64,000 bases of DNA, from contig MU004201.1 in NCBI GenBank assembly GCA_010093605.1, positions 73,216 through 137,215 of the forward strand, given 5' to 3'. The translations under genes were made by a program, and so were the position numbers. The notes under the pieces are model-generated. The model did no database searches, was not told the DNA's origin, and saw only the letters and a list, made by a program, of their open reading frames with translations. Positions 18,828 to 54,873 of the stretch are shown one piece after another. The DNA comes from Lophium mytilinum. Its lineage: Eukaryota > Ascomycota > Dothideomycetes > Mytilinidiales > Mytilinidiaceae. Each line of letters begins with the position of its first letter. Positions within the stretch are counted from its first letter, which is position 1.

Positions 18828-20290
18828 CCGTATAGGGTTATTCTATGTATTAAACTCCGGGCTTGCACCAAGTCTACGTAATGCTCGTCCTAACTCTATG
18901 CTTAAAGTTAGTAGGGGTATGCCGGTTATTTAGTGGAGTAGATAGTTTAATAAGACTTGTAGCTTAAGAAGTAATATATAGTCTAAAATAACGTAAGATT
19001 TTATTAAGGTTATTATTGTGGTAGATGTTAGGTTGAAATCTTAGCAGCTGTTATTTCCGAGCAGAGCGTTATACCCGAGTAGAGCATTCGGCGCGAGCAT
19101 AGCGTTCCTATTAACGTTAACCTCGCCGCTAGAATGCACATTATACTTAACATTATACTTATCTTAATGTTATTTTTAACATGGAGCAGACTCTTAGCGT
19201 TAAGTTTAAGGATAAATAGAGTATTAAGTATAACAGCTGTTAACCTTAATAGCATTTTCACTACTTAGCATATAGTCATGTTGGAGCAAATATTTAGAGA
19301 AACTAATGCTCGATTTCCTAGCTAGCTTATCCTTTACCTGCATCCACCGCCCACCTCCAGCATTAATATGATTGCAATCTAAAGAATTTAAAGTTAAAAA
19401 TAGAGAATGTAAAGAACGTACCTACCTTACTACCTTTGTCTTATAGCCTACCTTTTAATTTCCTCCACTCTCTACTGCGCAGAGTATTGCGTCGATAGGG
19501 CGGTGCGACTTGTAGATGTGGTGTACATTAAAGGGTTTAGTAGGATAGAATAGCGAGAATAATTCGGTTGGGTTTTTTAAAGTTTAAGGAGTGGTTACTC
19601 TACTATAAGGCGTGATGGTTCCTCTCTAGTCTATATTCCTTGTGTTAAAGTTAGTTTTAGTTACTTATATTAGAGGAGTTAGATGGGTATTTTATACCTA
19701 GTATGCGAAGAGTCGTGCTTCTAAGTATAGACGTGTCTAGAGTCTTTTAGGTTAAGTTCCAAGTTAAAGAGCGCTAGATATGGGGTAAGTACAGGACTTA
19801 TAGATTATATACCGATTTAACTACTATGAAAGGGAACTATCTCCTAGCGATAACGCAAGTGGAGCTGGTCAAGATCCCCGCTTTGAAATTGGGCGATTAA
19901 TATGCTATAACTCTTGTATAGCAGGACTAGTTAATGTAATGGTTGTTAGCTTTTGTGTTAAACACTACGTAGGTCTTCTAGATAACTTACTGTAAGGCAA
20001 TTTAAGGACTTGTATTCTATATCTATTACTATCTGGGATTCTTATTAGTCGATAAAAACATCGGCGAGATCGATGCCAACTTACGCCTATTCTTTTTAAA
20101 GTAGCGCGAGTGGTGTTAGATAGGTAGGGGTAGACTTATATATTGCGCTGTTCCTATAAATACATTTAATATTTATTAGTTAGCTTTTAACTTTTAATTT
20201 AACTCTTTGTGGGCGAATGGTTTATAAACAAGGACTTCAGCAACTAAGCGGAGGACATAGTTGGGCTAGGACAGGATAGAGATAAGGCGG
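18828..20290. other. Left part of K1, no clear gene
   Basis: Holds the left terminal repeat and moderately GC-richer sequence than the flanks. One plus-strand frame (about 19.72-20.2 kb) can be read with stops of TAA/TAG type, but stop density is no lower than expected by chance here, so no gene is called. Confidence 0.4.
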
Positions 20291-20716
20291 AATGCAGCAT
20301 TTAAGTAAGAGAGGGTTAAGAGCATTAATAATAACCCCCCATCTTAAGAAGCTCTATAGGAACCACTAAGAGATATAAGAATATAAAAAGAACACTAAAA
20401 GAACGTAGAATAAAGCTAGAATAATGCGCAACACATTAAAGACACTATAGAACAGTTCCTGAAAGGAGAGAAGGTAGAAAGGGAAGAGAGTAAAGGGGTG
20501 CAGGAGAGCGGAGATGCTTAAGATATACCTGCAGTAATTTGTGCAATGCGTCGCGGCATCGCGATTTATATAGGGCGGTCGATTTTCTAAGGGTAAGGTT
20601 AGAAACTCGAAATTGCCTAATAAACTCGCGGTTTGATTCGGGGATCTAGAACAGCTGCTGCACCTATTGCATTTGGCCACTTTAAAATCTCTAAAGTGTC
20701 GATTGAAGCCATAGAA
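20290..20716 (-). pseudogene. Possible small intron-containing gene inside K1
   Basis: On the minus strand an ATG at about 20716 opens a frame beginning MASIDTLEILKWPNA and running to about residue 60, with a few TAG/TAA stops. It is followed by an intron-like stretch with a GTATAT donor and a long pyrimidine run ending TTTCAG. The 104-residue open frame overlapping it (20366-20680) reads through this intron-like stretch and is probably a shadow. No domain recognised. It points the same way as the transposase and lies beyond its 3' end. Real gene status is uncertain. Confidence 0.3.
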
Positions 20717-21289
20717 GTGTGCGGCGATAGTTATTTAGTTAGTAAGTTGTGTAGTTAAAAACTGTGTACTTTAGTCAACATACTATAAACGGAGGTTAAA
20801 AAATAAGGCTTACTAAGATAGCTCTATCGCCGCCTTCCCCACCTTAACCATATGGTAGCGTACCCCGTATTTCCAACCTAGCCCGCCTAGTATTCCTATC
20901 CTAAGCCGCCGTTGCATGTCTAGACTAGCTGCTATCGCCCCTAGACTCTAGGGTATGTTTTCTAAGGCTGCGAATTGCGTGGTGTAACTGTCGTGGTCGT
21001 ATAGGGGTAGGGAATAGCTAGGAATGCGTTAGTAATGTGGGAGGGGATAGAGAAGGGATAAAACTAAGCGGGATGCTCCTAGCAAATGAACTAGTTAGAG
21101 GATGCTGCTAGGTTATAGGGGGTTTGTAATATGCATAGCTAGCAGACCTAGCACTCTAGTATAGTAGCTAGAAGCTCTTGCAGTTAGTATCTAGGGATCG
21201 TAGGGATAGGATCGATAGGATACGCTTGGGGATACTTAGAAAAGGGTATTAATCTAGAATGTAATGCTCCTAGGAATCTAGAATCCTGC

Positions 21290-21440
21290 AACTCGCCCTT
21301 TACGTTCTAGGCTTCTATAGTAGCCGTAGATAGATAGCGCGTTTAACTTAGAGTTGATTAGTAGTCTTATAGTGTTTGTAAGGATATAGATTGCTATAGT
21401 AGTAATAGTAGTGTAGGAGAAAGCTAGGAGTCGCAATAAT
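21290..21440. repeat. Direct repeat inside K1, left copy
   Basis: About 130 bp similar in the same orientation to 26760-26930; both contain GTAGATAGATAGCGCG and TTAGTAGTCTTATAG. The left copy lies downstream of the transposase 3' end and the right copy lies in the intergenic promoter zone. Possibly a shared regulatory or subterminal block. Confidence 0.6.
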
Positions 21441-22006
21441 GCCCGGTTGATTCTTTTAGCGAGAGCGTGCCGCAGCCTATTAGCCGCAGGCCGTAAAAAT
21501 AATTTTATATTTAGACATTAGAAAAGCAACACTACTTCTATCTCTGTTTTGTGAGAATTAAAAGCATTATACGCGCTATCCTAATAGCTACCCTTTGCGC
21601 TAAGGAACTATTACAAATGTACTTCCGTCTATAGTGTAAACTTATTACTAACTATTATAAGAATACTATCGCGAGAATATTCTAAGACTTCTCGGGTTAA
21701 CTCTATGAGTTTGTTATACGAGTCTATATCTAGTAAGGCACTTGCGGGACCTAGTTAAACTCGCATAACTGTAAAAGCTCTCACTTAAAATATCTCTAAG
21801 ACTTAACGACTACATATTAAGTAATGAGGTATAGTAAAACTTATAGTATTTATGCTTTTCCTATAAGGCGCTTAATTTCCCCTCTATCCGCCCTAAGACC
21901 AGCCTCCTACCCCCTAAGGAACTATGCCCTACCCCCTGCCCGGCAGAAAATACATTTCCAACCCCCCTTACTAATGCCAGGCATCCTAAAGAAACTGAAT
22001 ACTATC

Positions 22007-25000
22007 CTAATCACAATACAGCAGCTGCTCCGGCTTGAAAAGCGGCGTAATAAAGACCTTCCGGATATCTATAGACGGAAGATCAATAATGCGAAAGCCG
22101 GAAGATAAACGCAGAAGCGGCAAGTCGAGAATAGGATCTCTTTCGGCCTGGGGTTTAGTTGGAGTAATAATAACGAAAACCCGCTTTACAAAGTTAAGCT
22201 TATGGACGAAGATGTACTCCACGCGGCCGACCTGCCCATCTTTTGCCTTTATGAGATTTCCAATTCGAAAGGTAACGCGATATTCGGATAACCTAAGATT
22301 TTCAAGACTAGTATTAGCACGAAGACTCACAAGATTCAGGAATAGAGTTAAGGCATAGTGGCAGACTTACGGGTTAGTAAATGAAAGCCGCTTAACCTAA
22401 ATAAACGCTATAGTTCCGAGCCGAACTAGATTAGGCAGTTTATAGTAGTCGTCGTAGGCCTTTTAAAGGAGCATAATAAACGGATAGGTCGTGTCGAGCT
22501 TTCTAGGGCTAGGATATATATTAGGATTGCTGCTGCGGGCATCTTTCTTAATTTAATTATAAACGGTTGCAGCTTAATGGCCTTTATCGCTTTTAATACT
22601 AAGGGGAGAATTATTATTAAGCTTAAGCTCATTTTGCTCTAATTTTGGCAAGATGCGATTGAATAAATTTAGACAACTTTCGTTTAGGCGCTTTAGCCGT
22701 AGAGTGTGAGCTGGGTATATATTCTTAACCACATCAAGAATCGCAAGGCGGGTCGCAATGCGAACGTTCTCTTGCATTAATAAAGTCTTACATATATTCT
22801 AGGAGTTAGTATATTAGATGTCGTTCTTAAAAGTCCTATATAAATTTTAGCCTAGTTTAACCTTAATGTGTAGCTCTAGATGTTACTAACTTATAGACGT
22901 GCTCGCCGGTAAGAGTTATTACATTTCTAGGAGTAATATATTTATATGCTGTGTCCCACATATAAAGCTCTTAATAAACGTTTAGCAGCGAGAGCGCGTT
23001 TGTATTAAGTTGCAATTTCTTTATAACTTTAAGAACTTCCCTAAATTCATCTATATATAGATCGGCTTTATCTACTATACTTCTAGCTTGTAAGCTAGTA
23101 GCACTACTCGCGACGCTTAGTGTTGGGGTCGCAGCTCTTCTTTTACCTTTGCCTTTTCCTTTGCCTTGTCCCTTTTTTTTTCTTTTGGCCGGAGGTAAAG
23201 CTATAGCTGCACAGCGGTGCAGATCTTAAAAAGCTATTCTACCTTTCTATAGTATCTCGAACATGTTATTGCGTTGAGCATGGGTTATAGAAGGAGATAC
23301 TACGGCGGCGTTACTCTGCGCCATAGCGATAAAGCACTTTGTAATTGCATCAACGGGCGGAATACTAAAAACCTTGCGGGCGGCCTTAAGGTACCTATCT
23401 TCTATAAACCGCTCCTTCAACCAACAGCGGAGGATAATGGGCGTGATAACGGTAATTTTAGCACACTCTAATATCTAATAGCTCTTAATGTAAGTCTTAG
23501 GATTCTATAATTAAGACTAGCCCGGAGGAAAGTTTTAGGCGCTTAGTTGTTTTATAAAACCTGTCTTTCCTGCCTTATTTAGGAGGCTCTTAAAAAGCAT
23601 AGTTTAAGCGCGCTTTAAGATTCTAGCATATTTGGAATGAGCGGCGTCGGCAGGTCGGCTGCGGATAATGTCTAGAGCTGGAGCAATTCTTATAAGAGGA
23701 GTCTGTTCTGCTGCCATACTAACTTGTTAAAAGAATTTAGTCCAAGCAGCCTTACTTTTAAGTATATTCCCCTGTTGCCTAAGACTAATAACCTGGTAGT
23801 AATATTGCCCGTTTATAATAGTATTAAAAGAGAGATTAGTACGCTTAGATTTTAGTATAAGGCAGAATCTATATAAGTATTCTGCTGACACCGATATTAG
23901 ACCCTTTATCTTTAGTAAACCGACTATATTACTAGTAAAGGCTATCGTCCAGGCGCATACAAATTTCTCCTGGCCATTAATAGTTATTTTAATACTAGTA
24001 TCTAGATTACCAAGATAGTGTAGAGCTCTAATAATATCTTTAAATGAGGTCCTATATGGACTAAGTGTAATAGGAAAGGAGTTAGTTTGCCGTGTACGCT
24101 CGCGAGCACTTAAGCTGGCGGGTGTAATATAGAATCCTAGCATTTAGCGGTATATATTGCGATAAAGACTAAACTTATTAATAAAATATATATAAGGAAT
24201 AGTAATTAATCGATTTAGGAAGCTATATTGGAAGTGCTTTCGACTATAATACTAAAGCTCCAATTTAGCCCGAGTTAGGGCTAATAAATTCAACGCGCGG
24301 ATGCTCCGACCTTGCACATTAACTACGTATTGCACGATGAAGGCCTCGGGGCGTATATAGTTATGCTAATCCCCAGCCGCCGCGTATTGGTAGTCTAGGT
24401 AGACGGATGGCTCGTGGCTTTAGAGTTGTGCTTTACTAATAAGACAGCTACTACCCTTAAGAAGAAACAATTTAATTGCATGAAGGGGAGGATTTAGCAT
24501 TATAAGATCGTCCTAAATAGCATCCATAATTTCGGCAGAGAGCTAATGCCGTCTCCCGACATTCTGGATAAGTATAACAACCTTACTATACAGCACAGAC
24601 TTTATAGAATGCGCATAATTACTACCTATATAAGTAATTTAACCTATATATACTTTATTTATTATACTATAGCGGCAGCTATTAGTAGAATAAGTGTAGT
24701 AGACAAAGTTAGATAGAAAAGCTAGTAGACTGTTCGGGTATTTTATAAACTCTCTAGATGTGCTCCGTATAGAAGAGCCCCAGGCAAGAGAGTAGTATAG
24801 CTCGGTTAGCTTATCCATAAAAAGCATTATACTAACATATAGCTTCTTAATAAAAGAAGAAGTAGATAGAAGCATCTTTATTAAGTGGCGGATATTAAAG
24901 AAGGCCATTGACTTAGTATCCTTTAATCCAGTTAGCAGTCGTGATTTATTAACCACTAGAGCCTGCTTCCGCAGTTTTAGGAGAGGGAGATAAGATTACG

Positions 25001-25766
25001 CGCCCGCCTTAAGTTTATCTAATGTTTTTAGGAGCGAATATAGCTGCTTAATGTTCCAGGTCATTATAAAGATCTCTCGCAGTAATTGCTACTTCTTTCT
25101 TAAGAGCCCTACACTCTTAGCCTATAGCCTAAGTGCAATTGCTATATTGTCTTCTTTGCTGGTAGAAGTTAATATAGGATACTCTATCTCCTCTAAGTAG
25201 TCGATTGTTGCGGAGCTTAACGTCCTCCGAGTAGCAGGGGGCGGAGGCATTAGAGACGAAGGGCCGGGAAGTTAGAATGGTCCTGGTTTATGTATCGATT
25301 CAACGACATAATCCTAGAATAGTTCCCTAGGATTGTCAAAATTAAAATCCTTAAAGTTCCCTAGATCTTAATTAACCTAGCTAATTAGATTATTCTTAAA
25401 TATAGCATGCTCCTTTAAACCTTCTAGTTAAGCATCTTTAAGTAGTAGCTCTTCCTCTCGAGTAGCTACTCTAAGTACCCGCTCGTATATCTAATCTGAG
25501 TTGTGCGTGTCTGGGAGCGTTGGGATAGCTTCTTCCCCGAGCAAAGCCGTAGGCCTTTCTCCGCCTTTGTCTATCTAGTCCTGCGTTTAAGATTTGGAGG
25601 CAGCATTGGATATATAGCTATCGTTCCCACCTAGGAAGGCATCTTTATATTTATCCACCTCTTTAACTCCTTCTTACTCCTCTTCTTTAGAAGATAATAA
25701 CATAGATGAACTTTCTTAGATGCGGCGCTTCTTAGAGTGGCGAATAAAATCTATAGTGCGGGCCAT
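22007..25766 (-). pseudogene. Tnp2-like (CACTA/CMC) transposase of K1, decayed
   Basis: Starts at an ATG at 25766 (MARTIDFIRHSKKRR) and runs left about 1,250 codons, the size of Tnp2-type transposases. Recognisable order: a Pro-rich, acidic amino-terminal part (about 25.2 kb); a middle block at 23727-24143 with PITLSPYRTSFKDIIRALHY, then VCAWTIAFTSNIVGLL and a Cys-containing SAEYLYRFCLI segment, matching the fungal Tnp2-type pattern seen more cleanly in K2; the phrase IAPALDIIRSRPADAAHS just after it; and a C-terminal block at 22007-22330 (FRIGNLIKAKDGQVGRVEYIF) resembling the small beta-rich end domain of CACTA transposases. The blocks at 25.8-23.7 kb share one frame and those at 22.8-22.0 kb another, so an intron or indel lies between. 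It holds at least twenty stops, mostly TAA/TAG. Acts on DNA in the nucleus if ever functional. Confidence 0.65.
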
Positions 25767-25799
25767 GGTGGATTATATAGACGCCGTAGTAAGAGCGCA

Positions 25800-27100
25800 A
25801 GGAGGAGAGAGTAAATACTAAGTAAGACTTGTTAGAATAAGCCCTATACTAGAAGAGAAGTTAGGGAATTATAAAAAAGAATAAAACTTAAGTAAAATAC
25901 TAAAAGATAGCATAAGATACTTACAAGACTACACAAACAACTATAAGAGTATAAGAAATGTAGTAGAATAGGTAGGAGAGTAGAAGGGAGTAAGTAAAGA
26001 TATTGCGATAGAGGGAGAGATACTAGAGACAAAATGTAGCAAACGGATATAGTGCCGCAACATACCTTAAATTCTAGTTTTCAAAAGTTAAGTAAGATCT
26101 GACAGGCCGGGGAGCTAGAATGTGCGCGGCTCCTGTAGCATTTAGCTACTACTGCATCTTACTACTAATCGATTAATATATAGTAGTATCTGCTTTACCA
26201 TCTTAATTAGCAGTTGTTGTTTATATAGGGAGTTGAATTCTTAAACCTATACCGGTTACTAACACCAATTAAATGCTAAGAAATATCCATACTTAACTTT
26301 TAAGAGATTCTACTCTAAGGTCGCTACTAGCATTCTCCTAGGGCCGCCCCGTTAGCCCCCTACAGTCTAAGTATCCCAGCCTAGGAGCGCCACCCGTAGT
26401 CGTGCAAACGATAATCCTATTGCTACCTATGGAGTTTCTATCTTTAGGACTGCAATAGTAGAGGTCTAGAGAGGTCTAGGGAATAGGGGACATCCGGGGA
26501 TGTCGTCTATAGAGTAGGGGAAGAGTACAGCCTCTTAAGATACTATAATAAAACAAGCCGGTTAGTATATACTATCTAGTTATAGAAGGATAGTAGAAGG
26601 GCTATAGAATGATAAGTAAGTATATACAGCATCTAGCTATAGCTGCGCATAGTCTAATAGCGCTTAGGAGGGACAACTAGGGATAGAGGGATAGGAGAAG
26701 GGAAGATATATAGAGATCTGTAAATTAATATATATACTTCTATAGCGCATAACTTAGGGACCTTGCAACTCGTCCTATAGCTCTTAGGCTTATTTAGAAG
26801 GCGTAGATAGATAGCGCGCTTAATTTAGGGCTAATTAGTAGTCTTATAGTTGTAGTGCGGTGTTATAGTAGTGTAGAAGGAGAGGGTATAGTAGTAAACG
26901 CGTGGGGACGCGCAAGTTGCGAAAATCCCTAAGGCATTTTTTTTAGAGTGCGGGGTAATTTTACATTAAATAGTAGCCTAGCGCGAAACCTTAAATAAGG
27001 TTTAACCTATCTAAAGCACGGCAGCTAGAGGTCCCTGTTAATAACAAATTACGTGCATCTCGCGACTTAATATTAGAGCCAGCCCCGCTATCTTCCCCAG
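25800..27100. promoter_or_regulatory. Divergent intergenic region of K1
   Basis: Lies between the leftward transposase start (25766) and the rightward gene. Contains the right copy of the direct repeat (26760-26930) and purine-rich tracts (26640-26720). No open frame of note. It would hold the promoters of both genes by position only; no specific motif can be assigned. Confidence 0.45.
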
Positions 27101-27910
27101 CCTCTATATTTACTATTTACGATCGCCCTATCTCCCTAATTACTACCTACCTTAATCCTTTTCCTGTCTATTTTGCTTAGAGTACCTATTTTATCCGCTA
27201 TAAGCATTTCTAGTAAACTATAGATGGCCGACTTAGTACGTTCTAACAGCCCCAGCACATTAGTAAATACTTATCTCGTTCTTACCCAATCTATTCTATC
27301 TACTTGCGAGCTTATATTAAGTACAACACTTTAATAATGTTCTTGCTAATTACTTCTCTATACCTAGGCTGCCACGTCCTTCTCCTATCTAAACCTAGAC
27401 TAGTCCCAACCCTCCTTAGGCCTATACTTTTACATAATAGCAACATCCACCGTAAATAGCAGTAGTACCTTGACCCCTATTAACCCCCTTCTTAACCCCA
27501 CCCCTACCACTCCTCCCGGCGGTTAAGGCGATGGAGCAAACGGGTCTACGACAGGCGGCGACCTCCCCCTATTTACGCCATCCAGGAAGCGCAAGCATAA
27601 AAAGCCGCGCGCAAAGAAGGCTAACTTATCTACTTTACGGTCGGCTACCAGGAGCGAAGAGGACACTAAGCGCCCTGCCGATATCTTAGACTTTAACTGG
27701 GAGATACTTCGAGAATGCGAGCTACGCTAGCGAGCGTACTTTTTTAGATTCTTTTAAGAGAAAGATACTAAGGCTATGCTAAGGGCGGTGTTTGCAAGTA
27801 AGGGTATTGCAGATAAGGATATTAGTCGCGAATTATGGAATTTATGCATGTTAAAGCAGTAGGGTAATTATAATAACTGGAAGTCTAAAGAAACTATAAA
27901 GACGGCAAAA

Positions 27911-27959
27911 GTAAGTTACTTCTATTATTCTTATATACTCTATTCTAATAACTTACTAG
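27911..27959 (+). other. Intron in the second gene of K1
   Basis: 49 bp, GTAAGT donor, TTCTAATAAC branch region near 27943, TAG acceptor, phase 0. The flanking frames are open and protein-like on both sides. Confidence 0.7.
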
Positions 27960-28143
27960 AAACATGTTTGTGAAATGCTTAAACTAAATCCTTTGCTAAA
28001 ACACATTACCACTGTTGCTGGTCTGCGGGCAGATTTTGTAAAGTCTACCTCCTCCAATGCAAATATCTACGAGTGCTTCAAGTTTATCCAGAAACATCTT
28101 AACTTGGAGAAGTCACACATAGACGGCCTCTAGTTTGCGCAGC

Positions 28144-28196
28144 GTAAGTAAATTCTATCTATCTTCTTTTTTTATTCTTTGCTAATATGCTTTTAG
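28144..28196 (+). other. Second intron in the second gene of K1
   Basis: 53 bp, GTAAGT donor, GCTAAT branch at 28181, TTTTAG acceptor, splits a codon after its first base and keeps the frame. Confidence 0.7.
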
Positions 28197-29950
28197 AAAT
28201 ATATAGTAATCTGTGCGTTAAGGTGAAGCAGACTCTAGACTAGGAAGACGAACTAAAAGAGACGTGTTTGGCTGCGGATAAATCTTCGCATGCCGAGCTT
28301 CTTACTTAGGTTAATTTAATGGCGTCCTTAAAATAGTACAATAATATTAACCCGCTTACACACTTCTCTATCTGCGCCGTAGAGTTGGTGAGATTACTAA
28401 AGTTACTAAGAGAGCTAAACCTGCAGCACTCTTACTAGACGAGGACCCGGACTATATATTTATCCCCCGCCCATCTACTACTAGAGCTGCTAGAGGCAAC
28501 ACCTAGCTTCTAGCGTGCTTGCTTTTATTGTCGGATTGCAACGATCCCCGTTTCTCTCTATTATGTTTTTAAAGCCTGCATACTGCTCCGGTGTTTTCTG
28601 CAAGCGGCATACTATACTAGTAGTCTCTAATAGGTGGCTCTGTTTCTATAAGCTTCTCTCAATTGTTTTTTTAAGATTTCTCTTTCTTCCCTGTAAATGT
28701 ACGACGATGGCTATATAATAATATAAAAGGAAGATATCTATAGAGGTTTATATATATATCTGCAGCATTTATAATAAGCGGGTAAATAGGTAGTAGAGGT
28801 TAGTTTACGGCGGAGTTTTACTAAAGGCATGATACTCCGGATTTAAAAGTTTATAGATTTAGAGACATTACAAATCTACTATAGCAGACGTAATATCACC
28901 TTCTTCTTAACTACTACTTACGCCCCAAGTGCTTAGTATTAATAAAGCCACACGCAAAAGATATACACACCGCTACTTCTAAACTCTATGTGCTTGGGCC
29001 TTTAAAAAAAAAGAAAAAGCCAATTTTAATAAAAAGAACCGCGCACTGGGGTTATTTTTTTGGGCTTCCCACTTCCCGTCCCCACATAGGGGATTTAAAT
29101 ATGGATTTTTGATGCTCTATTATTTATTAGGCAGGCATATTTTAAACATATAAGCCCTGCTTCTACTAATTTTTATTTAGCAGGAGCAGACTCTATATAA
29201 AGCTTCTTGTAGCTTTTTTAAACCTAAGGAATAGTCTATTAGACTATTAGGGGATTTCAATATAGATTTCCCGGAGGCTTGTGTGCGGGCTGGAGGTCGG
29301 CTTAAAGATTTCAAAATATATACTTAAGTGCTACGTTGCAATACATACTAGGATATTAAATTACGCGGTTATCGCGGCGTTTCTATTACAGCTATATCTT
29401 ATTATAGATGTAACATAGACCCGCTATATATATCGGTGCACTAAATAGATTTCCAACTTTAATTTAGCGGTCGGATAGCTAGCCAGCTCGCTGTCCTATG
29501 CAAGCATTCTCTCTATATTAAGTTTAACCCAACTTTAGTTTTAAAACTACTAGAATTAAAGGCTAGCTACCTACTTAGCGCGAGCATATTATTGTTAGAT
29601 ATTTTAAAAGCAATATATAATTGTTGTAAATCTAATTTTTAAACCGACTAAAGTTTCATGCGCAATGCTAAGCTGGAAGGACATCCCGCTGAATAGGCGG
29701 CGAGCAGACAGTTCTATCAAGCATAGCATTCGCGCATTAGCATACTTGTGGCGGCAGATGTAGTACTTAACAGAAGCATATGCAGGCATATATTCTAATA
29801 AAATAGACCTTTAAATTAAACAAAATTCTAAATAATTTTAAGTTAGGATGATATTATATTAAACTGGGAGCTATTATGTAGTTGGGGAATAGCATTACGC
29901 TAACTTAGTGTAAACAAGTAATTCGATATATAGGATACCCCGGGACGCTA

Positions 29951-30037
29951 GAACGCCGGCGTCCGGCTAGGCGTGCATGTGAACATCCTGCACGTAAACA
30001 CGTACTATACGCTAGAGCCTGCCATAGAACCATAACA
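29951..30037 (-). repeat. Right LTR of G2, second half (right of K1)
   Basis: 87 bp matching 12382-12468, ending CATAACA, followed by the target duplication CTATT at 30038-30042. Confidence 0.85.
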
Positions 30038-30042
30038 CTATT

Positions 30043-33840: not shown

Positions 33841-33849
33841 TGTTCTAAG

Positions 33850-35248: not shown

Positions 35249-35450
35249 TATTATAGACTACGAGAGGCAAGACACGGAGCACGGTGTTAAACAAGGAATA
35301 GAGTGTATTTACAAAGATAAAGTCGCGTAGAGGTAGAGGTTCCACGTGGCGCAGGCTAAATACAGGCTGGAGGTGCGAAACCGCGCTAGCGCACGGGCTC
35401 ACGTGACGTAGCCGAGGGCACGTGATATATGCGGAGCTGGATCCGTTACA
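35249..35450. repeat. Solo LTR with 5-bp target duplication
   Basis: 202 bp flanked by CCTAT at 35244-35248 and 35451-35455. The right end is GTTACA. It is much richer in GC and CpG than its surroundings (for example GCGCTAGCGCACGGGC). No matching internal region is next to it, and no second copy lies in the window. Family not determined; LTR of a Gypsy-like element is likely by size and ends. Orientation uncertain. Confidence 0.65.
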
Positions 35451-35455
35451 CCTAT

Positions 35456-36085: not shown

Positions 36086-36087
36086 TA

Positions 36088-37162: not shown

Positions 37163-37362
37163 TGTTATAGCCACATGTTTACGCATAACACGTAACTAGA
37201 GGTTACGTAATAGAGGCTCTGCAGAACGGATAAACGTTACTCCGCCCTTTAGGTTATTACAACGTCCGTCCTAGGAACCTCTTTCTCTCTTATATTTACC
37301 TTTTGTTAATATTAATACTATTTAATCTAACAATTCTAATATTCTAACCTTAAGCCCTAATA
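37163..37362 (+). repeat. 5' LTR of G3
   Basis: 200 bp beginning TGTTATAGCC. Matches 55998-56197 in direct orientation and 55215-55414 in inverted orientation. Confidence 0.88.
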
Positions 37363-37731
37363 TAAGATAAATACCCTCCTAGCTTCTAGGACTAACAGAA
37401 GCACCCCTAGGAATTTTCCGTAGTAGAGTGTGCTCTTATAATAAGCTATAGTATACCTATACCTTTCTATATAGCAACTATTAGTAGAGTTGTAGACCCC
37501 TAATAAAGACTATACTAATATAGTGTCCTATTAATAGCGCCGCGGGCCCCTAATAAAGCGATCTAACTGTTGTGCGCAACGTTGGGTAATAGACCTCACG
37601 ACTGTAGCAGCGCTTGCGAGCCCCCATAATAGAGGGGTGGTAACAGTACCCTGGAAAGTCCTTACCAATTATATTAATTGCTTTAACGGCTCTGCAACTC
37701 CCTCTTCCATCTATTTACTATTACTAAATAG

Positions 37732-37875
37732 AGACTAACGCCCGGAAAGCTTAGTATTAACTACAGTGCGTGCGCGCGCCTAGCGTTACTAATTAATTGC
37801 TATTGCCACATAAAGACTAACGCCCGGAAAGCTTAGTATTAATTATAGCTAGCCTGCGCGCATACTTAGCGTTAT
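37732..37875. repeat. Tandem duplication in the G3 leader
   Basis: Two copies of about 60 bp starting AGACTAACGCCCGGAAAGC, 82 bp apart (37732 and 37814), between the 5' LTR and gag. Leader region of the element; role unknown. Confidence 0.75.
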
Positions 37876-43699: not shown

Positions 43700-46600
43700 C
43701 CTAACTAGTATTATTGCAACGCGGAATGCAGATAAAGTATTTTTAATGTAAAGATAATCTTAGACAATTAGGCGTAGACTCGTAAAGTGCTAAGCTTAAA
43801 GAGACGCGTTGCTAATAATACTCTTAACGCGGGGAAAATCTTGCGCTCAAGTATGTCTTAAGTATTTCTCGATGCTAAGATTTACCCCAATAAAAAACTT
43901 CTTTATGTTTTCTTTAAACACGCGATTTTCTTGAACCTTAGATTACCTTATAAAATAAAAGTAATACTAAGCGCAAGATTTACATTTGAAAAAAGTAGCT
44001 TGTAGTTAAGGAGTTTTTAATTTATTAAAGGATGCTTAAGATTGTCTATAGGTTTTCCCTGGTCACACTTAAGTACCCGAGAAGTTACCCTTAAGAACAA
44101 CGCCTTAACCCAAGTAGTCCCTTAGTATTAGGTAGAATACGCGCACTACAGCTTAGGTTATTGTATAATAATTATCTAGATTTATATAATTATAAGGCCA
44201 CTATATACACTGCGCAATCCCCGGTTCTATTCTTATGCGCCTGCATATACTTCTCGCCTAGTCCCTAATGTTGGAATTATATACTTTTAAAAGCGCCTAT
44301 CCCAGAATCCAATATCTACCTAGAGTCCTAATAGCCAGGTGGCTTCCTCGCCATGTCTTGTTGTCTAAACTGGGTATAGACATCTAACGAGCGCCCGCTA
44401 TTCCGCAGCGTGACTGTAGCTGGCTAAGTACTTAGGTGGATAATGTCTAATCGGAAGAGTCTCTAGCTGGGATATTAGTATGCTGTAGACTATTGTAGAA
44501 GAAGTAGTTTATGGTTAGCAAAGTAGGAATCTAGGATAAGATTAACGTACCGCTAAGTATACAGCGCGACTCCCACTACAGGTCGTGCCTTGTATTGCAA
44601 CAAATTCCTAACTAATAGTATCCCTAAGCTCTGCGTTCTCTCCATGTTCGTCCGTTAAGTTGCACGCGCGAAGGAGAAGAGTAGGCGAAGAAAGAGGGCG
44701 GGCGAAGGAGCGGAGAGCGTAGAGTTGCTAGTAGAGATTAATGGAGTTTAATCGGTATTGCGTTAGCTATAGTATATAAGAAGGGGCCTTAGTTTTAACT
44801 TACTACTTAGGTATAAGAAGTCTAATAATAGGAGGCGTCTCTTACTGCTAGACTATCGGCGACTAATACTCTCCTTACTTAGAATTAGCTATATAAGGAA
44901 TCTGCTTTCTAGCAAGAGGGGAGTTCCCTACTAACGTTCCTAACCATCCTCTTACTGTGTCTTACCAACCTAGCGTAGTTATAGCTAATGGGCCTGGTTT
45001 AGTTCTAGACGTAGAATGCTCGCGTTTTTATTATGTCGGCCTAGCACGTTCTTGTTAGCGGTTTTAGAACTAGGTGGAGGTGTTTATAACATTCCTATAA
45101 GCCTCTAGCTGTAGCGAGGCTGCGGCATAGTAGTAATAGGGTAACCTGTTTATTATAGGCATTTCTATATATATTAGTAGCTAGAGTATCGGCGCCTACA
45201 GCATATACCTAAGTAATAGAAGGCGGGCTAAAACGCAACACTAGAAACTAACGCTCTAAACTATGTTAAAAGTTAGTTAGGCTGGCACTAGTAGATTAGC
45301 CTTGCGGCTGAAATGAATTAGTAAACGTACTAATATAAATTGGGAGGAGAACGGGCGCGTTTAAGTGCATATAGTGTTTTAAGAATAAGAAATAAATAAG
45401 AGCGTAAATCTGAAACGGGTTTAGTACCTATAGCAGAATTGGAGCCACTCTAAAAAGATGCCGTGATGGATGCCCTGACGAATGCCGTAAGAGTCCTGCC
45501 TAAGAATTAGCAAAATTCCAATAAATAGGCCATAATAGCCCTTTTTAAGAGGTAGTTTAACTTTAAAAAGAAACTCTATAAAAATAATTTAGCGGAAACA
45601 TTCTATCCTAAGATGTTAGTAGGCTTCTACGTAAGAAGAGATTAATTTTGGTACCTTAGTAAAAGTAGTGCAATTCTAAAAAAATGCTTTAAAAACAGCC
45701 CCTAAAGGTTTCTAATTTTTTAGTATAGAGTAAAGGTGGGCGGCTTTAGGGAACTTGTTAAAAATGTTGCTTTTTTCGTCTAGGGGAAGGCCGGCGTTCT
45801 GTGACTATTTGCAATATGTTGAAAAAATTATTTCTAAGGCCGGCCCTATCGCTATTAATGCAGGGGCAGGCAGGGTTAGGTAGAGACTCGCCGAAGGTGG
45901 GAACCATTTAGGTGGGCCATGTGTTGGATAGGTTGAGGTAAGATATAGCACTAATTAGTACCTGTCTAGCCTTTTATCTTACTTGTATCCCTAAAGACGA
46001 GGAGTAGATCTCCACTTTAAAACATATCTCTGTCCAGGTAAGGTGTGGCCGTAGGTCTGTGGGAGGGTGCTTAAGGTATAGGTATAAAAGCATTATATTT
46101 AAGCTATCTCTACTTAGGTGTATTCCCTACCCCGCTCTCTATAGAAGTTCCCGTATACACGTAATCTATATATAAATATTTTACAACTATCCTACAATAT
46201 TATATAGTACTTCTTAGGATTATCCTTAATTAATCCTAAGATCCTATATAGTAATTTCTAGAATTAATCCCCGACCTATATAATACATTCTATAATATTA
46301 CATAGTAAATTTTAGAATTAATCCTAAGATTCTATATACTATTTTATGGGATTTTAATAGGGTGCAGTTTCTATAGAATAATACAGAGCAGTCACGTAAC
46401 TATAGCCCTATACCTAAGGCATTTTTTAATATATTAGTTTCTAAAGGTCTCTCCCGGGTATTGCATTTACTATATATCTATAACCCTATGGCGCTCTACC
46501 CCCAAGTAAACAGCATCTAGCGTAGTTACTACTTAGATAGCTTATATCTCTTAGGAGCACTTTAACCGCGTTTACTCGGCGTCTAAAGTTGCAGGCACTT

Positions 46601-47140
46601 ATCGCACTTTAGTTTCCTTAGATAAATATACTAGTTAAGGCTTTAGACTATATAGACTTAAAAAACGTCCTAGAGATAGATTGCTAACGCTTACTCCTCG
46701 CTCTATACTCTGTAGCATTCCTATAGTACCTAGTAGCGGCAGTAAAACCCCTAAGCAGAAGACATCCCCGTTCGCGCAAGGAGTCTAAGAGTAAAACCCC
46801 TAATGTAAAACCCCCTGGAGCAGAACCGCCTAGAGTAAAACCTTCTAGAGTAGAAGCCTCCGCATATAAGCTGCCGTATACCTGGCTATCTAGCCTAGGA
46901 ATCCATATTTGAAAATTAGATATAGGGCTAAAACCTAAGTTAAGGCGGGCTAATAGGCGGCGCAACTTTCAAGCGCAAAACTATGGTGTCGTGATTCTAA
47001 GCGTCGGCTATAAGATTAGGTATTGCAAGTATACTTAGAGATGCATATAATTAAGAAGTAGGTTGTATTAGAACGCTTATAGAAGAGCTATATAAGAAGT
47101 TAAGTACTAGTAAGAAGGGGTATAGGTAGATGCAGCACTT
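43700..47140. other. Left arm of K2, no clear gene
   Basis: About 3.4 kb between the left terminal repeat and the transposase 3' end. Purine-rich tract at 44660-44715. Imperfect repeats of an AGAATTAATCCTAAGATTC-like unit at about 46190-46350. At 46740-46870 there are short repeats around GTAAAACC, which on the minus strand read as GFTLG-type repeats. A minus-strand open frame (46684-46965) covers these; it is low-complexity and not recognised. Confidence 0.45.
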
Positions 47141-47151
47141 GCAAACTAATA

Positions 47152-50100
47152 CTAGAAGAACTGCAGACTGTCCCACGGATAGAAGATAATCACGCCGTTA
47201 TTATATAATAGAGAAATAAAAAGTCGCTTCGCTTCTACTACCGGTAGCCCAATAATGCTCTGCTGGAGTGGATTTAGCAAAGAAAGAAGGGGTAAGTTAA
47301 GGATATAATTACGCTTAACTACTTGTTCCACCAACTACGTTATAAGTAAGAATATCCTATCTTAACCCCGGAGCTCGTGAGCAAAGATGCCGTTGATTTT
47401 GCCTAGCTTCCTCTCTCTGCCGACGGTATAATTTCCTAGTACAAGGTTAATTCGCTTCTCGGACGCCCTATGCATATAGAGTTAGTTTTAGAATAACTAG
47501 TAAAGAAAGATATATAGAGAAGCACTTATAGATCTATAAATGCTAATCTCTTAAACTACTAAAGATTGTACTAACTAAGTTTAAATAAATTGTAAATTCT
47601 ATATTTAATAGAGTACGCCTAGTAAGGAATTACTAAGAAAGGATTAGATGGATTAGCTTTCCTTAGGTCTGATATCCGTCCACCGTCCTTAGCGAGTTGA
47701 GCGCGGTCGATTCGGTGGTGAAGAAATGGGCTTAGATGCCACTAGTTAGCACGCATTCTTCCTTTAGACTATGTTGCTTCTAGATTCTTTTTCTAAGTAA
47801 AACCTAGCTATTTAGATCGTGGTAGTATAGAGTTAAATAGGTCTGGATATATTCTATAAAGTTCCTGAACTATTCTAGTGCGGCTAGAATACTCCGCCTT
47901 AAATAAGCCGGCGAGAGTAAGCCTAGTAGTAAGGCAAAAATTCTTATAGATAAGTAGACCCTTAGAGCAGTTGCGCTTATTAGTTTAGTATACTATAGCC
48001 TTAAATTTGCCATGTTCGTCCTCGCCAGCAAAAGTTGTAATATTCGCCGGCACAGCAAAGTTGTAAGTAACTGCGTTATAGTGCAGCCTAGTATATTAAT
48101 TTAGGCAACTACAAAACGCTAGCAGTGCCTTTGCTCGTGCCTTAGGATTCTTCTTCTTTAAATGTATTTTGGAGAGGTTGTTGTCTGGATTAAGAGGGGT
48201 AGAGGCCTTACTTTCTATATTGCTGTCGTCCTGAGACGATAATGCCTGTAAGGAGGCTATAGATACAGCTTATCCCCTTCCTTACCCTCGGCCTTGCTAA
48301 CTAGCCTTAGTTAGTTCGCTTATAATATTAGGGTATACGCTCTTTGCGGCGCATTTAAAGAGGCGTTGCTACGATTCTTGGCCTTTATAGATTGCGCGAT
48401 TAATTTATGCCATATTAGAAGCGTGTATAGAAGGAGATAGTATTAAGGTAGAGCTTTAAGCCATCTAAGCGTACGCCTGTATAATTGCGTTGCAGACCAA
48501 AAGATTTGCTAAGAGTGTAAAGGTAGAAGAGATAGCTATCTAGAAGTTATGCTTGATTCACTTTAGCCTTAGCTATTAGTAAAGGATAAGGGGTGTAATA
48601 ATAGATATACGCGCACACTCGCCCATTTAATAAGACTTAAGATGCTTTAAGGGTGATTAAAGACGGGACTAGCTAGTAGGGAGTTGTTAGAGTTGAAGCT
48701 GCCTAGTATATTCTTCCTTGCTATTCTTCGTAAGTATACACTTAAAGAGGAGAGACTGGGCCTATTTCGCAAGGCCAGTATATTTAGAATGTGCGGAATC
48801 TAAAGGTTGAGATTCAACAATATTAAGCGCTAGGGCTATCTAGCAGACTGCGGGTGCTGTATCTATAAAGCCTAATCCTTTATAGAGTTTCTCTCTTACT
48901 ACTTATAAATGGACTCTTTTAATCTACTCTCTCAGCTAATAGTTTAATGGTGATACCGGCCGAATTAGATAATATTAAACTTAAGATTATGCTGTTTATC
49001 TTTGTGTATAAGACACGAACTATAGAAATAGTTCGCCGTCGGCCCATGGATGCCCCGGTTCTTATTCTGCTTAGCTATATCTGTAGTAAAAACTATAGTA
49101 AAGGCATATAGAAATATACGCTGGCCGGTAATAGTAGTATATATGCCTTTATCTAGGCGCCGAAGATAATAGAGTGTGCCAATAATATCTTCGTGCAATG
49201 CCCTAAAAGGGCCTAAAGTGATAGGGAGAATATTGGCATTTCTGGTTTACTTATAGGCGGGGAGACTAGTAAGTATCTAGTATATGCTAAATATAGCTCT
49301 ATGCATATTACAATACAGGCCAAATTCATCTATATATGTAATAAGAGGAAGGGATATTATTTAGCCACTAATAAACAACGATATAATAAAATGCCGCCCG
49401 AAATGGGCGATCTCCAGCTTAGCAGGAATAGGGGGAGATAGGCTTAGGGGTCGTAGAGTGCTATCCGAGCATATTAGATTTCAAACCATAAAGGATGTAT
49501 TAGTACGGATTTAAGCGGGTAGATATATAATTCCTTTAATTTTAGGTGCTATATACCGGTAGTCTAAATAAATAGATAGTTCCTAGCTAATAATAGACAC
49601 TTTAGGAATAAACTCCCCTTGCCTAAGAATAATAAAGAGTTCCTAAGATTGGATAGGAGTAATAACACTAAATACAAGGTCGGCGTGGTCCTCTGTAAGT
49701 TTAGATTGTTAAAGGGCCCGACAGATTATAAGCCTTACTAGGCTAGGTTTATCTAAAGTACTTTAAAAGTCCCGACTAATATAATATACTCGCCTAAGAT
49801 GTTGCTGCAGATCCTAGTGGCAGCCACACTCGCTATTAGGGCATCTGTAATAGATAAAGTCTAAAGGTAGAATAGGTAAGCCATCTAGGTACCTCGCAAA
49901 TTCCCTAGACGTGCTGCGTGCCGACGCACCCTATGCCGTAGAGTAGTAGCATTCTAAAGGGGCATCTATAAACTGCATAAATCCCTAGTAGACCTTCCTC
50001 CTTAGCTAATTAGATGCTATAAACTTTATTAGCATGTCCTCTATATTAAAGAAGACTATATCCTTAGACGGAGTCTTACTAGTTAGTAGCTAGAGCCTAT

Positions 50101-50800
50101 CTAGCTTTAGGGTTTAGTGTCTCATGCAAATAAGGGGGAGTTATGACCTGGCTCAATCGCGGAGTTGCTCGATGCGAGCTGGGAGAGTATAGAGGGGGTT
50201 AAGGTTATAGAGACCTAGGATAAGTATTTAAAAGGTAGTATAGTACTTCTATAATAAGCTAATAGAGTTAAAGAGTAGGTATAGGGCGAAGTAGAAGAGA
50301 TCTATATCCCCGCTCTTAATGTTGTATAGAAGTTCTCGCGATGCGTTAACTGCAGTAAATAAAGGGGGTATAGGAGGAGGAGGCATAAGAGGAGGAGGAG
50401 GAAGCATACCTGCAGCAGTCGCTGCAGCAGGTATTTCGTTAGTATTAAGAGCATCTTTGGCCTCTAATGCCTCATCGGAAGCGGGGCTAGAGTTGGAGTC
50501 CTTATAATTAGAGATAAGTTTAGGGTGCATTATTTCTCTCTCTAACCGCTGGCTACTATTGTCTATGTTACTTGTAAGGTTAATATCGGTAATAATAGCC
50601 TTTAGGCGTTTATTTAAATCCCCGCCTTGTAGCCCAGGTTCCTCCTTATATGCCGGCAGGTCCCCAGCCTTATTATCTTAGTCTCCTCCTGGGCTGCCGA
50701 TCTAAGATTCTATTTGTTGTCTGCGCGTTCGTTCTTCCGCGCGGGCTTGTAAGTTGCGGTTAGTAGGAGGGAGGGTTCTATAGGGGCGCGACTGCAATAC
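47152..50800 (-). pseudogene. Tnp2-like (CACTA/CMC) transposase of K2, decayed
   Basis: Homologous to the K1 transposase. The block at 48965-49198 reads EDIIGTLYYLRRLDKGIYTT, then ITGQRIFLYAFTIVF and HGPTANYFYSSCLIHKDKQH, aligning with K1 23727-24143; the N-Y-F...C-x-x-H pattern is typical of Tnp2-type transposases. The C-terminal block at 47152-47334 (ILNLPLLSLL) aligns with the K1 end ILDLPLLRLS. The amino-terminal part (50249-50530 and just upstream) has Pro-rich and Asn/Ser-rich stretches. As in K1, the amino-terminal and middle blocks share one frame and the C-terminal block is in another, which may point to a conserved intron. Many stops, mostly TAA/TAG. The start is uncertain, around 50.8 kb. 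Confidence 0.62.
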
Positions 50801-51177
50801 TTAAGGCTAAGAAGGTTTAGATATAGGACTCTAAAGAGGGCGCTTTTATCGGGGCATTGATAAACTAAGCAAGGCAGGATTTAGCTTTAGCATAATTGTT
50901 CTTAATAAGAGGGATTAGTATAAAGAGTAGAATTCTTTACGGCGAAGAGTACTTACGAGAGGCTAGTATATGGGCAGCTGCTAAGGCTATAGTATTTAGT
51001 GATAGAGTAAACACGCAAACGCGTCTTAGTGTTTAGCGGGGTCTTTAGAGCGGGGACTTAGCATTACATATATAATGCTAAAAATTTACAATATTAATTT
51101 AGAGTCTTAAAAAAATATCTTTTTACTAAGGTCCTAATATAGAGCGCTTAAATATAATGTTTTTAAAATGCTCTAAT

Positions 51178-51567
51178 CTAAAGTGCCTAGAAATTAGATA
51201 GCTATAATAGCATGATCTAAAGTGCCTAGAAATTAGATAGCTATAACAGCCTGATCTAAAGTGCCTAGAAATTGGATAGCTATAACGACCTAATTTAGAG
51301 TGTCTAGAAATTAGATAGCTATAACGACCTAATTTAGAGTATCTGGAAATTGGATAGCTACAATGACCTGATTTAAAGTGGTTGGAAATTAGATAGCTAT
51401 AACAACCTAATTTGAAGTAGTTGGAAATTTAATAGCCCAAACAACCTAATTGAAAGTGGTTGGAATTTATATAGCAAAAAGAGTCTAATTTAAAGTAGTT
51501 ATAAATTGTATAGCGAGCATAGGCTAATTTAGGGGGTGTAGAAATTATATAGGGAAAAAGTTCTAAA
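51178..51567. repeat. Minisatellite of ten 39-bp units in K2
   Basis: Units start at 51178, 51217, 51256, 51295, 51334, 51373, 51412, 51451, 51490 and 51529, exactly 39 bp apart. The consensus is close to CTAAAGTGCCTAGAAATTAG followed by ATAGCTATAACAGCCTGAT. The first units are nearly identical and the last ones drift. It lies between the transposase start and the second gene, where subterminal repeats bind TnpA in plant En/Spm, though here it is internal. Confidence 0.9.
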
Positions 51568-52249
51568 AACGCGCTGCCTGTAAATTAAAGGTCTAAGATT
51601 ATATTAGATAGAAGGTTACTTAGATATATAGGGATATATTTATGTAACATATATTTAATATAACTTTAGATGTTTTATACTATCTTATCCTACTCTACTT
51701 AACTTTTTACCTACTCTAATCCCCACCCTAGGGGGTTTTATCTTAAGTAACCTTATGTGTTCCTGTCTTAGATTATATAAGCTTATCGCTTAAGAAGTGG
51801 CCGGAAGTCTCTGTTATGTAAGTATTATGTAACATCGCCTTACCGTCTTAACTATGTTCCCAAGTATAATGCTAACTATAATCTCTACTACCTAGGTATG
51901 CTAAGATATATATAATATGTTATAGCAATATTAGCTATATCCTAGAAATATTCCCTAAATCGGGACCATTTTCAAAATAAATGTAAGGTTCCTTCGGAAG
52001 GTTCCGTATTATCTAACCCCGCTTATTCCTAATTGCCTACTCTAGATCCCGACCCCTAACTTACTAACTACCTCTCTACTATTAAGCATTACAACTTATC
52101 TTCTATCTTAACCTATTCTGCTACTATTAGACAGCCTATTGTATAGGCTAGCCAGTAAGGCGGCTTACGCGTCTCTTGCCTTAATTACTTTACTTTTAGC
52201 GCCTGTTGCCGCTTACTACGCCTTCTATAATTGCTTCTATCGTGAATGG

Positions 52250-53870
52250 CGAGGCATCTACTTCTCCTTAGCCTCCCGCGTCTCTATCTAAGCGCAAGGG
52301 CGATAGTATATTACTGCTTATAAGAATCTAACTTCGACATTTAAAGAACTCTACTAACTCTTCTAGCCCTTGCCTAAGAGGTCTACCCGGGCTAAATCGG
52401 CGCCTAAGACTACTAAAGCTCCTAAAGCTCCTAAGGCCCCTAAGGCTCTGAAGGCTCTAAAGGCCCCTAAGACTCCTAAGGGCCCGAAGACCCCGAAGCA
52501 AAGCCTTACAATAATAACTTCTAAGTCCTTAAAGGCGGTGTCGCCCTCTAAACCTAGCACCGTAGATCCTAAATTATAAACTATTGCGGGGGGTTTAACT
52601 AGAGAAAGCTTAGTCGATGGGCAGTCTCCCCTAGCTAAGTAGGTTCCGATGGATCCGGTCTTGCACGCGTCTGCCACGACGTTAGGTGCCACGGATCTAA
52701 ATAGGGATGCTAGTGCGGATAGTAATAATTACAGCGAAGATAAAGAGAACAACGTCGAGAATAAGGAGGATAATAAGGGAGAGAGTGGGGGAGGAGACGG
52801 CACCTATAAACCTAGACCTTATGTTCGTTCTACTATCCCTAAGACATTAGCTGTAACTCCCGAGGATGTTAGCAATAATTTAGAAGAAGATGCTGTCGCT
52901 CCGACTTCTACCCCTGTACTAACTTAGCGCTCCTCGGCTAAAACACAGCGAAAGAGATCTAGGAAAGCTGCGGCTATTTCTGCGCCTGTCTTAACCTCTT
53001 CTAAACCCTATTATAAGGATCCTAATATAGATATATATAAGGTAGATACTACTTAAGTATTCTTAAAGAGAATTAAGACTAAGTGCCGGCGGATGTTCTA
53101 TTAATATTAGTGTTACCACAACGTGGACACTATCATCGCGCAAGCGTGTAGGCAAGACTAAAATCTAGAGGATATGCCTATAAGCACTATTAATTCCGCC
53201 ACTAAAAAGATTAAGAAAAACTATAGCAATTAGCAATATATTTCTATCTTAGCCGCAAAGGTATATTTCTATAGAGTACTTAATCTTGCGTAATTACTAA
53301 AACTTGTAGATAGAACCACGTTTAAAACCTTATAGAGGCTAATGAGAACCTTTGCGTGCAAGAGCGCTGGGATTATCTTGTAACCTACTTCTCGAGGTGC
53401 TACACCATAGAGAACTTTAAGTTCGTTTTTCTATTTATTAGCGGATGGATTTCTATTACAGAATCGGAAGCAATTGTTAATTAGTTCTGCTAGAGTATGT
53501 TATCCTTCTTAATTCTTTAATCTTCTTAATAGGTTCTAACTGTGTTAGGTATCTACGCTAATTTCTACGCTTGTGTAAAGCTGTATATAGACTAGCTAAA
53601 AGATTAAAAGGCCCTCCGCAACTACCTAGATAGTAGTACAGCGCTTAAGATATTCTTTAAGTAGATGGGACTATATAAAGACTACTATAATATTTACTCC
53701 TATAATATTATAGCTAAGCGCCGCAGAGAGCTGTTACTTAAGAGCAAGTCCTACAACAACTATAATATTAACGCGGATCCTCGATATAAAGTTTTGCCGG
53801 GGAAACTAGAGCGCTTCCACCTCCTTGCGCCGGCCCTCGCGCCGTTAAAGTCCTAGGTTATGGGCTGCTT
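52250..53870 (+). pseudogene. Second gene of K2 (function unknown)
   Basis: One plus-strand frame carries a Lys/Pro/Ala-rich stretch (52370-52460, repeats of KAPKAPKA), then an acidic Asn/Glu-rich stretch (about 52.73-52.79 kb), a basic segment (QRKRSRK near 52.95 kb) and a protein-like region to about 53.35 kb. The sequence continues in another frame (RWDYLVTYFSRC near 53.37 kb) to 53856, ending GKLERFHLLAPALAPLKS. Stops are mostly TAA/TAG. The frame change near 53.3 kb may be an intron, but no donor and acceptor pair fits the phase. By position and direction it is the counterpart of the K1 second gene; both start with a basic, low-complexity part. Sequence homology between the two was not established by eye. 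Confidence 0.5.
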
Positions 53871-54873
53871 CATCTCACCTATTCTGTAAGAATGTCTTTA
53901 AGATGTATATATAGTAAGGGCTATCTAATATTAGGCTGATTTCTCGGGCCCTAATTTCCTTTAATGATTATAATATATATAATACCCGGGGTAGCTCTAT
54001 TCTAATCTCCTTTTCTTTATCTTCTTACATTTACTTATGTATCTATGCATATTAGCGCGGATATACCTATAGGCAGGCAGTAATTTAGGCGTTTAAAGAT
54101 AGGCAGTTAATCTCCTATAAGAAGCACGGCACCTTTCTTTATATCTTATAGTTTAGTTCTTAGACTAGCAGATTTGCGCAGCAATGACCGCGCAGAATAA
54201 TTACAGTATAATAATCTTAATTAACACATTATGCACGCTAAATCTTAAAAGGGTAATAGGTAGTGATTTTAAAATTGTGGTATATATATACGCGGCCGCC
54301 CACTATTAGGGATCTTAGGGTTGTGCTTAAACGCGTCTCCAGGTTAGATTAAGGGAAAGGACTTCTGCGCATTCACTCTTTCTTAAAAGCACTTTGCTGA
54401 AGTCTTAAGGTAATTATATTAACGCTATTAACGTCGCTACACAGGCATTTTAAATGTGGGCTAATCTTAATAACTGCGTGTATGCAAATGCAGCCCCAAC
54501 TCAATTTTGCGTGCGACATGGTGTTTTTTAAGATTAAAATATTAGAACAAGACAAATCTTTTCTAAAATAAAGCTGCAGCTTTATCTATAACTTAAGAGG
54601 ACGAAGCTATATAGAATAGTTATGGTTTTCTATAATAATTTCTGCGCTAAGCTTTTGCTAAGAAATTTTTTACGTTAAGTATGCCTTAAGTAATTCTTTG
54701 CGCTAAGCCTAACTTAACACTAAGCTTCTTTTACAATAAGTATATCACGCGCAATTACGATAGTACAAGACATATAAAAGCGATTTTAAGGGGTTAGGAA
54801 GGTTTATCTTCTACTTAGATATTTGTAAGCGGTCCCGAAGTTCCCCGTTGCTTACCCCCCGATCGCCGTACAG
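53871..54873. other. Right arm of K2
   Basis: About 1 kb with no gene seen, ending in the right terminal inverted repeat (about 54805-54873). AT-rich with degenerate short repeats of a CTAAGCTT-like motif at 54640-54740. Confidence 0.5.

Follow-up and report, generated by a model that had tools for sequence, protein, structure and literature searches.

The window analysed here, a 64-kb stretch of the Lophium mytilinum genome (contig MU004201.1, positions 73,216 to 137,215; C21:73216-137215 in our contig labels), contains two large transposable elements, K1 and K2. Both are dead, distantly related DNA transposons, whose leftward gene probably coded for a DDE transposase of the CACTA-Mirage-Chapaev (CMC)/Transib type. 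This placement would follow from the order and spacing of a set of conserved residues, and a divergent CMC-like lineage appears to be the best reading of the sequences. An earlier note on this DNA had proposed two elements of 11,121 and 11,249 bp, and both were found at the places it gave. The genome searched comprised 43.2 Mb in 24 contigs (labels C1, C2 ... C22). Only one open reading frame of at least 120 aa was listed across the 64-kb window. The central features are as follows.

18828-29948, no strand assigned: K1, complete DNA transposon of 11,121 bp, bounded by a split 182-bp long terminal repeat (LTR), with TA on both sides
43625-54873, no strand assigned: K2, complete DNA transposon of 11,249 bp, with an empty site in relatives of its target and two more family copies
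21992-25262, minus strand: K1 leftward gene, broken transposase, from tblastn matches to K2, K3 and the C10 and C22 copies and from motif order
47158-50398, minus strand: K2 leftward gene, broken transposase, from homology and an excess of third-position mismatches

The leftward gene and its transposase motifs

Aligned as proteins, the leftward genes of K1 and K2 match in several linked pieces, of which the largest covers 500 aa at 31% (E 1.7e-81), in agreement with the earlier note, which had described such a gene in both elements. The longest open stretch of the K1 gene (23727-24143, 138 aa), used as a protein query, identified five places in the genome, namely K1, K2, copies of the K2 family on C10 and C22, and a third element on C12, termed K3. 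The leftward gene of K3 (C12:1220364-1223666) aligns as protein with K1 at 22.0-25.3 kb and with K2 at 47.2-50.4 kb. The leftward genes of K1, K2, the C10 copy, the C22 copy and K3 are homologous. Mismatches between K2 and the C10 copy peak at the third codon position in two frame blocks (0.317 vs 0.188/0.247 and 0.366 vs 0.193/0.229), and the K2 gene was once under coding constraint. Frame changes were located near 22,880 in K1 and near 47,490 and 48,930 in K2, the last being absent from the C10 copy.

An alignment of five transposase rows (K1, K2, the C10 copy, the C22 copy and K3) yielded the motif order D(81-83)D(18)C(2)C(119-123)H(3)H(3)E when changes typical of repeat-induced point mutation (RIP) were allowed. 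Transposase_21 proteins are reported to have two Asp residues about 80 residues apart and, in fungi and plants, a G-P in the middle block (PMC1636069), and members of the CMC-Transib clade to carry C(2)C and H(3-4)H ahead of the last E (PMC12730594). The middle block reads GP in four rows and SP in K1. Row by row, the unmutated residues are the second C and the E in K1; both D, the second C, the first H and the E in K2; both D in the C10 and C22 copies; and the second D in K3. Every departure gives N, Y or K (Cys and His to Tyr, Glu to Lys, Asp to Asn), as C-to-T or G-to-A type changes would produce. The 257 columns after the second D hold a single CC pair and a single HH pair, and the ordered set of CC, HH and E appeared in 0.085% of 20,000 column shuffles. 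The transposase was presumably catalytic, with a putative role for the residues of the motif.

K1 and K2 bear strong RIP-like mutation and broken genes, and both are inactive. The TpA/ApT index was 1.52 in K1 and 1.57 in K2, and (CpA+TpG)/(ApC+GpT) was 0.74 and 0.70, respectively; the direction of both indices is that expected of RIP by the usual cut-offs. Because the flanks of a miniature element on C10 (described below) differ in both indices (TpA/ApT 0.96 and 0.85; (CpA+TpG)/(ApC+GpT) 1.21 and 1.31), the pattern is not genome-wide. The retroelements into which K1 and K2 inserted, their hosts, were more extreme than the transposase genes, with TpA/ApT of 1.72/1.89 vs 1.43/1.52 and (CpA+TpG)/(ApC+GpT) of 0.59/0.60 vs 0.80/0.75.

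Several results weigh against the CMC-like placement. No Pfam model, Transposase_21 included, matched the transposase pieces of K1, K2, K3, C10 or C22, with stops masked and E up to 5 or up to 10; a further K2 piece had a single match, at chance level and below the cut-off (SEEK1, E 0.068). None of the scanned frames of the two transposons yielded a useful Pfam match; on the minus strand the scans covered a single frame of K1 right of 27,800 and, in K2, the part left of 52,200. The missing match is not simply an effect of RIP, because the same stop-masked search finds domains in the more mutated hosts, although the well-sampled retroelement domains of this control are easier Pfam targets. Since Pfam is silent on the transposase, the CMC type rests on the motifs. 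A whole-genome search with PF02992 was empty, but 14 controls were silent too, which makes it uninformative; a PDB profile search yielded no relative, and an AlphaFold model from a two-row alignment was unusable (mean predicted local distance difference test score, pLDDT, 31). Within the motif itself, all five rows have Tyr in place of both the first C and the second H, and Tyr-rich sequence yields compatible columns easily. Taken singly, the pairs turned up more often in the shuffles (CC 5.6%, HH 25%), and the motif test was written after the sequences had been seen, on five rows of which three are one family. The D-G of the first Transposase_21 motif (PMC1636069) is absent, its G position being occupied by K, E, A, K and K in the five rows. 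The termini of the K2 and K3 families are CC..GG, vs the CA..TG reported for most of the CMC clade. Thus, the earlier suggestion of a CMC-like, Tnp2-type transposase is partly supported: motif order and spacing make the CMC type the likely reading, and Tnp2/Transposase_21 had no profile match.

Insertion sites, family copies and target duplications

The limits of K1 were set by the element that it interrupts.

18828-18887, plus strand: K1 left terminal inverted repeat, imperfect, beginning CCGTATAGGG..., matching the right end
29889-29948, minus strand: K1 right terminal inverted repeat, beginning GCGTCCCGGG... read inwards, matching the left end
18826-18827, no strand assigned: left TA target-site duplication of K1
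29949-29950, no strand assigned: right TA target-site duplication of K1
12287-12468, no strand assigned: intact left LTR (182 bp) of the element hit by K1, placed by alignment

The LTR at 12287-12468 aligns to 18733-18827 and 29949-30037, and because these pieces meet at the K1 borders with a 2-bp overlap, K1 spans 18828-29948. At the ends of K1, 29 of the first 45 ungapped positions are identical, a value not reached in 20,000 random pairings of stretches from K1. K1 inserted into a minus-strand Ty3/gypsy-type element of about 6.6 kb (12287-30037 minus K1) with Pfam matches, stops masked, to reverse transcriptase (RT), RNase H, SH3 and chromodomain. No second K1 was found in the genome with the two K1 end regions as DNA queries, the middle of K1 being covered only by the 138-aa protein query. 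A 116-bp direct repeat within K1 (21287-21402 and 26764-26879, 75% alike) flanks the transposase gene on both sides.

K2 was delimited by its inverted ends and by empty sites.

43625-43705, plus strand: K2 left terminal inverted repeat, beginning CCGTACCGC..., 79 bp at 80%, E 3.5e-14
54793-54873, minus strand: K2 right terminal inverted repeat, 79 bp at 80%, E 3.5e-14
43623-43624, no strand assigned: left TA target-site duplication of K2
54874-54875, no strand assigned: right TA target-site duplication of K2
37162-56197, plus strand: Ty3/gypsy-type LTR element hit by K2, with 201-bp LTRs (pair 91%) and RVT_1 and Integrase_H2C2 matches

Eleven loci were fetched out of 36 other matches to the K2 host (the part left of K2). 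In all 11 the site is empty, with flanks joined on one TA and aligned across the junction; one relative (L044) reads TG at the insertion site and the other ten read TA, and some have small gaps further downstream of the junction. The host of K2 matches RVT_1 at E 1e-18, in addition to the integrase domain (Pfam, stops masked). An extra inverted copy of the 201-bp LTR lies at 55212-55412, just right of K2 and within the host, and a 1,077-bp direct repeat (87%; 36086-37162 and 60729-61805) flanks the K2 host region.

A DNA search for the K2 family, in which 8 of 9 candidates were scored, identified two further copies, on C10 and C22. The C10 copy (317582-336545) has both ends, which match each other at 93% over 71 bp, and contains a 7,716-bp stretch (322521-330236) between 201-bp direct repeats, without which it measures about 11.24 kb. 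The left end of the C22 copy lies at 531468, next to an outer CA; a right end was not found. This copy is interrupted by a gap of about 50 kb, and the segment C22:523447-530645 (L031, L032), between 236-bp direct repeats at 90%, lies inside it. No empty sites were found for the C10 and C22 copies, the queried 300-bp flanks being single-copy.

K3 (C12:1216105-1228713, 12,609 bp) has the ends CCTTACCGCG...AAGC with TA on both sides, and it is a third lineage beside the K1 and K2 families. Its left 3 kb matches short elements on C12, C6 and C10, plus one internal match on C7. The C12, C6 and C10 miniatures hold both K3 ends inside 709-740 bp. A search with one miniature gave 18 matches, corresponding to 12 loci besides K3, and K3-type ends were present on both sides at 9 of these 12. 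End pieces were fetched for eight loci beyond the first three, with the C17 locus left out; only one end could be located at each of two C1 loci, and the left end of the C15 miniature was set by alignment instead of a clean terminal match. Short GATG/CATC motifs lie mostly in the terminal 100 bp of the miniatures at C12:360751-361479 (L054) and C10:697755-698494 (L056), and almost none were seen in the C6 miniature; those in the miniature ends are possibly binding sites. The K3 enzyme may have mobilised these elements of about 0.7 kb that bear K3 ends.

Thirteen insertions could be bounded at both ends (K1, K2, the C10 copy, K3 and nine miniature copies). Identical 2-bp flanks were found at 12 of them and a 3-bp match at none, a pattern with a chance of about 3e-12 at an assumed match rate of 9%. 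With strand ignored, the duplications were TA in seven (K1, K2, K3, C6, C18a, C2a and C2b), CA/TG in two (the C10 copy and the C12 miniature), TT/AA in two (the C10 miniature and C8) and TC/GA in one (C15); comparison of the flanks of the C18b miniature revealed no duplication. The target duplication is therefore 2 bp of variable sequence and not bound to TA, because five of the 12 duplicated insertions, all of the K2 and K3 families, are non-TA. The TA duplication of the earlier note was confirmed at K1 and K2 and does not extend to the wider family as a fixed rule (TA in 7 of 12), and the longer duplications it had named as contrary evidence were not seen. A preference for a pyrimidine in the first position was considered and dropped, since strand is arbitrary for elements with inverted ends.

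A duplication of 2-5 bp is expected of the CMC/CMCT clade, in line with the 2 bp at 12 of 13 insertions. The Mirage branch is reported with TA duplications; K1, K2 and K3 themselves have TA, and five of the 12 duplicated insertions, all of the K2 and K3 families, do not. RIP converts CA and TG to TA and never back; therefore, the duplications may be more varied than their frequent TA in mutated DNA suggests. The termini are of the type CC[G/T]TA, extended to CC[G/T]TACCGCG in K2 and K3. The transposase would have bound the CC[G/T]TA... terminal inverted repeats, excised the element and integrated it at a staggered cut of 2 bp, in most cases at TA, and such staggered insertion would leave the 2-bp duplication.

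The proposed rightward gene

A second gene, directed rightward, had also been proposed for both elements.

52040-53943 (approximate), plus strand: K2 rightward gene, weakly supported and fast-evolving, from low stop density and codon periodicity
27200-28700, plus strand: K1 candidate rightward gene, from low stop density in parts and a placement similar to that in K2
51088-51555, no strand assigned: array of 39-bp tandem repeats within K2, present too in the C10 and C22 copies

The low-stop frame of K2 seems to shift near 53,310, and the C10 and C22 copies are similar in this respect. Codon periodicity against C10 was weak at 52841-53300 and moderate at 53317-53943. The K2 rightward region is 42-66% identical to the C10 and C22 copies in 200-column windows, vs 70-74% for the transposase and its surroundings (blastn pieces). 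For the K1 candidate, no homologue was found. Comparison of the right-hand parts of K1 and K2 detected no homology (best match E 2.2), and neither rightward gene had a Pfam match with E up to 1 in the right-hand plus frames. Thus, the second gene gained weak support in K2 and low stop density alone in K1, with no alignment between the two, and the proposal that the elements share a conserved accessory gene of their own was not sustained, the K2 region diverging faster between subfamilies than the transposase. It is plausible that the K2 rightward gene encoded a fast-evolving helper, by analogy with the second proteins of SmTRC1, and as a guess this might have been a TnpA-like DNA-binding protein. 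A TET/JBP dioxygenase as second gene, an idea taken from PMC12730594, was rejected, as no match was found in the right-hand plus frames. For the 39-bp repeats, codon-position evidence and stop density indicate different frames, and the repeats may have a coding or a binding-site role.

Rival placements and known systems

We put forward tentatively, as a possibility that we hold somewhat doubtful, that K1, K2 and K3 form an undescribed deep fungal branch of the CMC/Transib clade, with CC[G/T]TA termini, a 2-bp, mostly TA duplication, a transposase beyond the reach of Pfam, and miniatures of its own, at least one of them in RIP-free DNA. Pattern searches of IMG/VR and GTDB contigs gave 272 and 191 matches, with no relative among them. 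A limited literature search of titles and abstract openings, from which absence from print is not established, returned no fungal CC[G/T]TA termini with 2-bp duplications. If such a branch exists, a fungal lineage would be added to the clade that also holds RAG1, and the defined ends and duplication rule could be used to seek intact members. It would also suggest that a duplication can come to look TA-specific through RIP while relatives in the same family show other dinucleotides, a masking that matters for transposon classification in RIP-prone genomes.

The K elements might instead belong to the Plavaka or ESTA types, named fungal lineages within the same wider clade, which we regard as unlikely. 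PlavakaA is fungal with 2-bp duplications, and ESTA, an EnSpm-like group of rust fungi, has TA duplications; both carry the C(2)C/H(3-4)H motif, placed in ESTA between the second D and the E (PMC12730594), with which the five K rows are compatible when RIP-type changes are allowed. However, the termini are TGT..ACA in PlavakaA and CATCA..TGATG in PlavakaB, vs CC..GG in the K elements (PMC12730594), and there was no Pfam match. From ESTA as described in PMC12730594 the K elements differ in a duplication that is not TA-only.

Rather less likely is a DDE lineage unrelated to CMC in which the motif match is accidental. The empty profile searches and the small number of mutated sequences would fit such a coincidence, as would a first C that is never C and a second H that is never H; against it stand the rarity of the ordered set in shuffles (0.085%) and a D-D spacing near the reported 80. 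We consider an origin from PIF/Harbinger-type (PHIS) elements improbable. Its fungal PHISTA lineage has more than one gene and, in rust fungi, is reported with extra proteins and with TA duplications (PMC12730594), and TA duplications were found at K1, K2 and K3. Nevertheless, the K duplication is 2 bp yet not restricted to TA, the C(2)C...H(3)H...E order is a signature of CMC, and no Pfam transposase model, including a Harbinger-type DDE profile, matched the transposase pieces. Tc1/mariner-IS630 or another strictly TA-inserting superfamily would account for the TA flanks of K1, K2 and K3, but is very hard to reconcile with five non-TA duplications among 12, sizes of 11-12.6 kb, the lack of a Pfam match and the long stretch from the second D to the proposed E.

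Placed as divergent CMC-like elements, K1 and K2 can be compared with two known groups. CACTA/EnSpm elements resemble the K elements in their large size, in having terminal inverted repeats and, in many cases, in having two genes. They differ from the K elements in CAC..GTG termini and 3-bp duplications (PMC12730594), and some CACTA-type miniature elements have 2-bp duplications (PMC6004678). The SmTRC1/TRC elements, which are animal and fungal relatives of CACTA, resemble the K elements in 2-bp duplications, in two Asp about 80 residues apart and in a second protein without detectable relatives, and the termini of the animal members begin CCC where those of the K elements begin CC (PMC1636069). 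Unlike K1 and K2 with about 11 kb, SmTRC1 measures about 4.7 kb, and it has a recognised Transposase_21 domain and D-G in the first motif, neither of which is seen in the K elements (PMC1636069). The K elements, most likely members of the CACTA-Mirage-Chapaev group, are a real, though not a revolutionary, addition to it.

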